NCBI GenBank assembly: GCA_016177705.1
Contig: JACOUT010000011.1
Location: 310,001-374,000 of the forward strand
From: Deltaproteobacteria bacterium
GTDB lineage: Bacteria; Myxococcota; UBA727; VGSZ01
Direction of reading: 5' to 3'
Length of the DNA: 64,000 nt
Part shown: positions 4,155 to 58,739 of the stretch, piece by piece
Position numbering within the stretch: position 1 is the first letter of the stretch
Layout of the letters: each line of letters opens with the position of its first letter
Notes under the pieces: generated by a model
What the model saw: only the letters and a program-made list of their open reading frames with translations
Databases searched by the model: none
What the model was told of the DNA's origin: nothing
Made by a program: the position numbers and the translations under genes

Positions 4155-4227
4155 GGGCCCGTAGCTCAGCGGTAGAGCAGTCGGCTCATAACCGATCGGG
4201 TCGCGTGTTCGAATCACGCCGGGCCCA
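4155..4227 (+). tRNA. tRNA with CAT anticodon (elongator Met or Ile2)
   Basis: A full cloverleaf can be drawn by hand. The acceptor stem GGGCCCG (4155-4161) pairs with CGGGCCC (4220-4226), followed by discriminator A. The D arm is GCTC/GAGC. The anticodon stem GTCGG/CCGAT closes loop CTCATAA, with CAT at 4187-4189. The T arm GCGTG/CACGC encloses TTCGAAT. The 3' CCA is not encoded. CAT anticodons occur in initiator Met, elongator Met and lysidine-modified Ile2. The fully paired first acceptor base pair argues against initiator. Met versus Ile2 cannot be settled by eye. Confidence 0.93.
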
Positions 4228-56561: not shown

Positions 56562-56602
56562 TCGCGGTGCACTGTATCACCGGTGCGAAGGCGTCCAGGT
56601 TC

Positions 56603-57613
56603 ATGGCACACTCGTCGCCCATGAGTGGCGACCGGGTTACGGGCCGTTCGCGTCCGCCCGAGCCTGCTGCACGGGTTGCGCACACTCTCGACGAGGCCAT
56701 CGCGTCTTGGCTCTCGCATCTCGAGCACGTCGAGCGGAAGAGCGCGCACACGCTGCGCAACTACGCGAACGACGCCGCGCAGCTCAGGGCCTTCCTCGTC
56801 GACAAGGGTCACCCGGGCGTCGCCAACCTCAAGAAGGTCGACCACATCGCGCTGCGCGGTTTCCTGGCGGCGCGCCACCACAGCGACTCGACCACGTCGG
56901 TGCTGCGCAAGCTGTCCGCCCTACGCGGGCTGTTCGCGCACGCCAAGCGGCACAAGCTGATCGACGCCTCGCCGGCCGCGCTGCTCGACTCGCCCAAGCG
57001 CCCCAAGGTGCTGCCGCGCACCGTCAGCGTCGAGGAGGCGTTCGCGCTCTGCGCCGCGCCCAAAGCTCGGCAGCCGGCTAAACCGGACGAAGCGCAGGTT
57101 GAGGTGCCGCTGCGCGACCGCGCGGTGGTCGAGCTGCTCTACGGCTCGGGCCTGCGCGTCGCCGAGCTGTGCGGCCTCGACCGCGCCGACGTCGATCTGG
57201 CCGGGCGTTGGCTGCGCGTGCTCGGCAAGGGCAAGAAGGAGCGGCTCGTGCCCTTCCACGACGCGTGCGCCACGGCGCTCACCGCCTGGCTCGAGCAGGG
57301 CCGCCCGGCGCTCGCCGGCGACGACAGCGGCGACGCGCTCTTCCTCGGGGCGCGCGGCGGGCGCCTGCACGATCGCGAGGTGCGCCGCTTCCTCGCGCGC
57401 TACGGCGTCCTCGTGGGCGCGCGCGGCCGCGTGCACCCGCACAAGCTGCGCCACGCCTTCGCCACCCACCTGCTCGAGGGCGGCGCCGATCTGCGCGCCA
57501 TCCAGGAGCTGCTCGGCCATGCCAGCCTGTCGACGACACAGCGATACACACACGTCGACGTCGCGCGGCTGACCAAGGTGTACGACGCCGCGCACCCGCG
57601 GGCCAAAGGCTGA
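56603..57613 (+). CDS. xerC: tyrosine recombinase XerC
   Basis: Resolves chromosome dimers at dif with XerD. From ATG 56603 it has 336 residues; ATG 56621 is another reasonable start. The N-terminal SAM-like domain begins LDEAIASWLSHLEHVERKSAHTLRNYANDAAQLRAFL. The catalytic core keeps R185 (GLRVAELCGL), HKLRHAFATHLL, LGHASLSTTQRYTHV and the nucleophilic Tyr within it. Its length and motifs fit housekeeping XerC rather than a phage integrase. A 112-base imperfect palindrome starts 5 bases after its stop. Confidence 0.88.
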   Translation: MAHSSPMSGDRVTGRSRPPEPAARVAHTLDEAIASWLSHLEHVERKSAHTLRNYANDAAQLRAFLVDKGHPGVANLKKVDHIALRGFLAARHHSDSTTSVLRKLSALRGLFAHAKRHKLIDASPAALLDSPKRPKVLPRTVSVEEAFALCAAPKARQPAKPDEAQVEVPLRDRAVVELLYGSGLRVAELCGLDRADVDLAGRWLRVLGKGKKERLVPFHDACATALTAWLEQGRPALAGDDSGDALFLGARGGRLHDREVRRFLARYGVLVGARGRVHPHKLRHAFATHLLEGGADLRAIQELLGHASLSTTQRYTHVDVARLTKVYDAAHPRAKG

Positions 57614-57618
57614 CGGTC

Positions 57619-57730
57619 CATCGCAGAATCGGCTGCGGCTGCGTTGGCCGACTTCGGCGCTCGCTCACCTACGGGGAGTATGCTCGCTTCGCGCCTCGCC
57701 GGCCGCCTTGCCTCGCTCGATTCTGCGATG
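57619..57730. repeat. 112-base imperfect palindromic element after xerC
   Basis: The ends are 13-base perfect inverted repeats, CATCGCAGAATCG (57619-57631) and CGATTCTGCGATG (57718-57730). Inside, GGCCG/CGGCC and GGCGC/GCGCC pairs sit in matching order, so the whole element can fold into a long interrupted hairpin. The centre contains GCTCGCT direct repeats. It occupies most of the 199-base gap after xerC. It may be a transcribed structure, an interspersed repeat or a protein-binding site; no function is known to me. Confidence 0.6.
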
Positions 57731-57812
57731 TCCCTTGACGGAACCGGCGCTGCCCCCTTCCCCCCGACGTGCTCGCCGGCTAGCACGGCCAAAATTTCCG
57801 AGGGGAGATCTC

Positions 57813-58739
57813 ATGCGCAACATCATCGTCACCACGTGCCTCGCCGTCGCCGTCGGCGCCGGCTGCGCCACCACCCACGAAGCCAAGTGGTCCGAGAAGC
57901 CCGTCGCCGTCGCCGCCACGCCTGAAGGGGCCACCGCCGCCGTAGCCGTCGCCACCGAGGGCGACGAGCTGTGGAAGCAGCGCGGCGACAAGGCCAAGCT
58001 CGCCGCCGCGCTCGCCAAGTGGGAGGAGGCCGCCAAGGCGGCGCCCACGGCCGAGCTGGCGTCCAAGTTGGCGCGCGGCCACTACCTGATGGGCGACGGC
58101 TACCTGATGCTCGAGGACAACGCGGCCGGCCGCGACGAGGAGTACCAAAAGGGCCTCGACTGGGCGACCACGGCCCTCAAGCTGGCGGCGCCGGACTTCG
58201 CTGCCGCCATGGCCAACAGTGGCAAGCACGCCGAGGCCATCAAGCTCGCGCCCAAGGAGGCGGTGCCGGCGATGTATTGGTACGCCGCCAACCTCGGCAA
58301 GTGGGCCTCGTCCAAGGGCTTCGCCACCAGGCTCAAGTACAAGGACGACCTCAAGGCCACCATGGAGCACGTCAAGTCTCTCGAGCCCGAGTTCTTCTAC
58401 GCCGCCGCCTGGCGCTACTTCGGCGGCTACGAGGCCGCCACCGCGGGCATCGCCGGCGGCAGCCTCGACAAGTCGAAGGAGAACTTCGAGAAGGCCATCC
58501 AGCTCGCGCCCAACTACTTCGGCACCAAGGTGCTCTACGCCGACTTCCTCTGCACCAAGCTGCAGAAGGACACCGACGGCGACGGCATCAGCGACGGCAA
58601 GAAGAAGTTCAAGGAGCTGCTCGAGGCCGTGATCGCGGCCGACCCGAACGTCGACCCCGAGATCGCGCCCGAGAACACCATCGAGCAGGCCAAGGCCAAG
58701 AAGCTGCTCGGGCAGATCGATCAGCTGTTCGCGAGCTGA
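57813..58739 (+). CDS. TatT-like TPR lipoprotein
   Basis: A 308-residue predicted lipoprotein. ATG 57813 has GAGGGGAG upstream; the signal peptide ends at GAGC (Cys18). The helical body, with LARGHYLMGDGYLML, MYWYAANLGKWASSKG and NFEKAIQLAPNYFGTKVLYADFLC, resembles TatT/T-component proteins that form trimeric periplasmic partners of TRAP transporters. No TRAP transporter genes are nearby, so the partner is unknown. The DTDGDGISDG segment looks like a calcium loop. Confidence 0.72.
   Translation: MRNIIVTTCLAVAVGAGCATTHEAKWSEKPVAVAATPEGATAAVAVATEGDELWKQRGDKAKLAAALAKWEEAAKAAPTAELASKLARGHYLMGDGYLMLEDNAAGRDEEYQKGLDWATTALKLAAPDFAAAMANSGKHAEAIKLAPKEAVPAMYWYAANLGKWASSKGFATRLKYKDDLKATMEHVKSLEPEFFYAAAWRYFGGYEAATAGIAGGSLDKSKENFEKAIQLAPNYFGTKVLYADFLCTKLQKDTDGDGISDGKKKFKELLEAVIAADPNVDPEIAPENTIEQAKAKKLLGQIDQLFAS

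Follow-up and report, generated by a model that had tools for sequence, protein, structure and literature searches.

The window, i.e. the whole stretch of 64,000 nucleotides analysed here, carries a gene for a putative xerC-like tyrosine recombinase, named after the preliminary description and its C-terminal motif TQRYTHV, and a long imperfect palindrome that includes the stop codon of this gene (Table 1). The palindrome contains a perfect inverted repeat of 13 bases (CATCGCAGAATCG and its exact reverse complement), which encloses 86 bases and starts five bases past the xerC TGA, as initially described. The span of 57619-57730 reported at that time is, however, only the inner part of the element, since copies elsewhere align from the CTGA that holds the xerC stop through a TTGA at the right end, giving a total length of 129 bases. 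The element has no gene of its own and its ends are bounded by inverted repeats. Folded as a single strand, positions 57610-57740 reached -61.8 kcal/mol compared to -48.8 +/- 3.5 kcal/mol for shuffled sequences (z = -3.7), and none of 200 shuffles was as stable.

Table 1. Parts of the palindromic element and the gene upstream of it (positions in the window)
Feature	Position	Strand	Basis
Whole element, imperfect 129-base palindrome	57610..57738	+	13 copies aligned by BLAST and covariance model
xerC TGA stop within the left end CTGA	57611..57613	+	same base offset in 11/13 copies
Direct repeat TGACGG, left copy (possible target duplication)	57611..57616	+	read from the sequence
Direct repeat TGACGG, right copy	57736..57741	+	TGA recurs here in 6/13 copies
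Left arm, perfect 13-base inverted repeat	57619..57631	+	sequence
Right arm, perfect 13-base inverted repeat	57718..57730	+	sequence
Conserved left block GCTGCGTTG	57638..57646	+	GCGTTG invariant in 39 cross-genome alignment rows, by their selection pattern
Apical block GCTCACCTAC-GGGGA-GTATGCTCGCT	57663..57688	+	cross-genome form GCTCACGTAC-n-GTACGCTSCGCT
Conserved right block CGCCTTGCC	57704..57712	+	sequence and cross-genome alignment
Upstream gene, xerC-like tyrosine recombinase, outside the element proper	56567..57613	+	ORF and orthologues

Copies in the same genome and in relatives

A BLAST search of the same genome (G000; 6.9 Mb, 22 contigs) with a 131-base query revealed 13 close copies with 86-100% identity, distributed over nine contigs. 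In the alignment of these copies the element is 128-130 bases long, begins with CTGA and ends at about TTGA. The covariance model R1, made from the 13 copies, added seven distant copies (L025, L026, L028, L029, L030, L033 and L034), and a second model, R2, made from 39 loci of other genomes with G000 excluded, added two more (L275 and L276), so that the element occupies 22 places in the genome (13 close copies and nine more distant ones). The dispersed repeat family considered in the preliminary description thus exists. Some R1 matches hit copies already found, on their opposite strand, and were left uncounted, and two weak ones (L038 and L039, E about 3) were dropped. One of the distant copies, L275:1499-1660, has a TGA at the beginning, and its long arms (GATGTGGCGGAGAACC) are unlike those of either subfamily.

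Among 97 relatives R1 found matches in seven genomes including G000, with 11 copies in G001 and three in G002. R2 matched 17 of 146 relatives, G000 again included, and missed G001, which had been found by R1. A BLAST match of 26 bases in G030 is probably due to chance.

Covariation of the arms

In the alignment of the 13 copies, 97.2% of the 533 cells are paired. Both partners had changed in 28 cells compared to 10.7 in shuffles, the observed covariation score was reached by none of 500 shuffles, and sliding the pairing partners abolished the signal. One-sided standard changes were absent from the 13 rows, and no G-U intermediates were present among the changed pairs. Pair 17/116 is A-U in seven copies and G-C in six, across both subfamilies. 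The double changes at 38/96, 42/92 and 60/72 are few events that for the most part distinguish the two subfamilies, and some of the changes that separate the subfamilies are single inherited events. The lack of one-sided intermediates suggests that one arm is copied from the other rather than slowly compensated. Covariance analysis had been proposed at the outset, and a single non-conserved copy lacking compensatory changes in related genomes had been named as the refuting result; what we found are 13 close copies with co-varying arms.

Placement at stop codons

In 11 of the 13 close copies, all in one orientation, the long frame upstream terminates in a TGA that forms bases 2-4 of the element. 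The exceptions are L013, with a TAG five bases upstream of the first base of the element, and L009, in which the nearest stop of a long frame with G+C-rich third positions is located 34 upstream. Inspection of open frames showed that a convergent frame ends at or near the other side in eight of the 13 copies.

The xerC orthologues of G002, G003, G004, G005 and G006 end at approximately the same residue with TGA and continue into unrelated DNA, and all five lack the element (no R1 match). Judged against these orthologues, the C-terminus of xerC at the window locus is not truncated. In G001 no clear xerC orthologue was found. A comparison of the flanks of 20 G000 copies with those of 19 copies in relatives revealed shared genes for the pair L013 and L056 only, and in these two the genes stand on different sides relative to the element. 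The remaining weak matches fall on or beside the elements themselves.

The ends of the copies may point to short target sequences. TGA is present at both ends in six of the 13 copies of the window subfamily, the window copy having TGACGG on both sides, and CTAG is found at both ends in three of eight copies of the second subfamily in G000 (L029, L033 and L276). In genome G107, TA is located at both inverted-repeat ends in six of 20 copies (by inspection), and in nine of the 14 copies with an upstream frame (20 examined) this frame ends in a TAA or TAG located exactly 36-37 bases 5´ of GCGTTG, a distance that corresponds to the outer stem. Stop distances in G106 and G102 scatter and are less regular than in G107; for most G102 copies the ends were poorly determined by the script used to find them. 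For comparable enterobacterial elements a duplication of TA has been reported (passages in PMC2759123 and PMC2229807). We propose from the sequences that the window subfamily possibly duplicates TGA; no empty site resolved to the base was obtained from this subfamily, and the TGA at both ends could instead belong to the element itself.

Hairpins of the same pattern in other phyla

Distant copies retain GCGTTG, a GTAC-like apex and CGCCTTG and differ in their stems. A scan of 84,980 species genomes with the pattern GCGTTGN{4,24}GCTCACGTACN{2,8}GTACGCT yielded at least 120 stretches. The isolates among the matches listed are Pseudomonas, Providencia and Evansella; the MAGs among them are assigned to Nitrospirae, Deltaproteobacteria, Acidobacteria, Chloroflexi and others, an assignment that can be wrong for MAGs. 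A shorter pattern matched 14 of 16 carrier genomes and occurred as many as 55 times in one genome, and the reversed control pattern had no match in these 16 genomes. From the stretches found, 80 were used as loci, and after removal of duplicates and of copies that contained N or had short flanks, 80 elements were available. Exclusion of nine loci by hand left 71 elements, which were thinned to 44, and 39 of these form alignment A2 (L065, L093, L127, L128 and L135 were excluded); since its rows were found by exact pattern, the invariance of A2 within the search pattern is there by construction.

The stems themselves were compared by swapping arms between copies. Parsing succeeded for 68 of 80 elements, and in these the native arms paired much better than swapped ones, with medians of -10.3 versus -4.4 kcal/mol for the inner arm and -22.7 versus -12.1 kcal/mol for the outer arm, and the pairing of swapped arms was at the level of shuffled sequences. 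R2 recognised the window element with E = 1.7e-10, and over the 64-kb window the element was its sole match up to E = 10. The element is thus significantly similar to a model derived from other genomes, that of the hairpin class with GCGTTG, GTAC apex and CGCCTTG.

The new point is this apparent internal code, which on the evidence of the alignments is common to several phyla. Small palindromic repeats are usually described genus by genus, and an internal code shared by phyla would place many of them in a single class and make the hunt for a mobilising or binding factor tractable. A literature search by motif and concept, limited in coverage, found no description of the class and none joining these repeats, although one may be in print. 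We tentatively suggest that a single hairpin superfamily, ancient or horizontally spread, might extend from Bacillota to Pseudomonadota and the phylum studied here and insert precisely over stop codons. Its three-block code (GCGTTG, TGCTCACGTAC-n-GTACGCTSCGCT, CGCCTTG) might be read by one conserved putative factor, and its stems might be rewritten arm from arm.

Several members are found in particular surroundings. In Providencia stuartii (L077:7102-7243, minus strand) a member is located in the spacer of an rRNA operon, between a tRNA gene and the 23S rRNA, and L104 carries a nearly identical element. In L112 (6193-6228 and 6252-6426) the apical pattern comes immediately after a 6S RNA gene and shares its strand. 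Tandem copies are present in L085, L093 and L111; their spacing is about 131 bases for Pseudomonas viridiflava and about 160 for Evansella. A Pseudomonas copy used as query had no match in collections of plasmids and phages.

Nature of the element

A multicopy palindromic element of MITE-like kind that is seated at stop codons is real. We regard it as probable that the element in the window is non-autonomous and was inserted at the stop codon. New copies would enter at a short target, TGA here and TA in sister subfamilies, and duplicate it, which would rebuild the stop codon and allow the host gene to survive. Such a seating would explain how these elements accumulate in compact genomes without gene breakage. 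The enzyme would act in trans, the arms would be kept matched largely by copying arm from arm during strand fold-back, and the three conserved internal blocks may be the site recognised by a host factor or a mobilising one. Mobile elements rarely retain internal sequence across phyla, and the conservation seen here makes a host function possible.

The same placement could be expected of a functional 3´ UTR RNA, i.e. a hairpin at the stop codon that is kept by selection on the RNA because it terminates or protects the mRNA of the gene upstream. Eleven of the 13 copies have the same orientation and the same distance to the stop, eight have convergent neighbours and the arms are paired, all of which is consistent with such a role, as are the members that follow the 6S RNA gene (L112) and, by eye, a tRNA-like 3´ end (L117). 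Furthermore, a small-RNA study lists in a table TTCGGTGCTCACGTACTTTTAG from two Thalassospira lucentensis loci (PMC6413936); it contains the apical motif and is weak evidence that a class member is transcribed. An effect on mRNA via RNase E has been reported for ERIC in Yersinia (passages in PMC10969869). Against an RNA role, the element is not kept at orthologous xerC genes, the changed pairs contain no G-U intermediates, and insertion at stop codons by itself accounts for the placement. A search of both strands at 57300-58000 revealed neither a U-tract nor an intrinsic terminator, i.e. a G+C stem with a T run, and the same region contained no sigma-70 promoter pattern. We therefore consider selection for an RNA function unlikely to be what maintains the hairpin. 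The structured RNA of the preliminary description is borne out as far as structure and compensatory changes in the sequence are concerned, and a working RNA role is only a candidate. Rfam contains no family for the window element at gathering score or at E up to 1, and 16 further loci gave no gathering match on an element; L025 gave only a sub-threshold match to isrG. The sole Rfam match in the window is a tRNA gene at 4155-4227.

If the element is a mobile one, as we prefer, the question arises which enzyme moves it. A REP-like element moved by a Y1 transposase (RAYT or IS200/IS605-type) and inserting 3´ of a tetranucleotide would be palindromic and would have a fixed orientation, and CTGA is indeed found at the left foot of 11 of the 13 copies. 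However, the element is 129 bases long and not 20-40, and Y1_Tnp (PF01797) is absent from the carriers G001 and G002, with a single weak match (26 bits) in G000, making this explanation very improbable. DDE_3 proteins (IS630-type) were found neither in G000 nor in G001, and one is present in G002. G001 thus has 11 R1 copies and neither a Y1 transposase nor a DDE_3 protein, and neither family fits the distribution of carriers, although absence of an enzyme is not final in G000 because this genome is 92% complete. A Xer-type recombination site tied to xerC, suggested by the position of the element directly 3´ of this gene, is disfavoured and almost certainly wrong: a single one of the 13 copies stands behind this xerC, the other 12 sit elsewhere in the genome, and five of five orthologues are without the element.

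Comparison with known repeats

The closest described analogue in layout is the enterobacterial repetitive intergenic consensus (ERIC, also IRU or RU-1), which is 127 bp long and for which TA duplication has been reported (passages in PMC2229807 and PMC2759123). Both have a similar size, a single long hairpin and TIRs, and both are intergenic and often located 3´ of genes; in L193 the start of ERIC reads within three bases past the ybhI stop. The cores do not match, since R2 gave only 13.6 bits (E = 0.026) for ERIC over 21 bases of the centre. By eye the layout is suggestive of ERIC as parent family, but neither R2 nor the sequence HMM, which did not report ERIC, supports it.

Intergenic repeats of Pseudomonas fluorescens such as R178 (101 bp) are comparable in that they form families with a tail-to-tail bias (passages in PMC2718517). 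YPAL/RU-2, Correia/NEMIS and RUP are likewise small palindromic non-autonomous elements, most of which carry TA ends (PMC2229807, Table 1). The printed sequence of RU-2 lacks, by eye, the conserved blocks. The BoxC/triplex motif and the Geobacter class-4 repeat were rejected since their printed consensus sequences are different.

A repeat of E. coli, located at pyrH-frr and on enterobacterial plasmids and presumably the one named RSA (152 bp), is matched by R2 with E = 9.4e-8 and 1.3e-4, and the sequence HMM beats 1000 of 1000 shuffles. It resembles the class in that CCTCACGTAC and TGTACGCT flank a short loop, whereas the outer arms are unrelated and the GCGTTG and CGCCTTG blocks are not evident. 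The Providencia copy has matches in 5375 of 5426 E. coli genomes, with a median of eight places (two inspected). On the E. coli plasmid pKFu015_1 (L192:1456-1606) a related repeat separates two genes whose counterparts in a Pantoea plasmid share a few bases, and it may thus have split a coupled gene pair.
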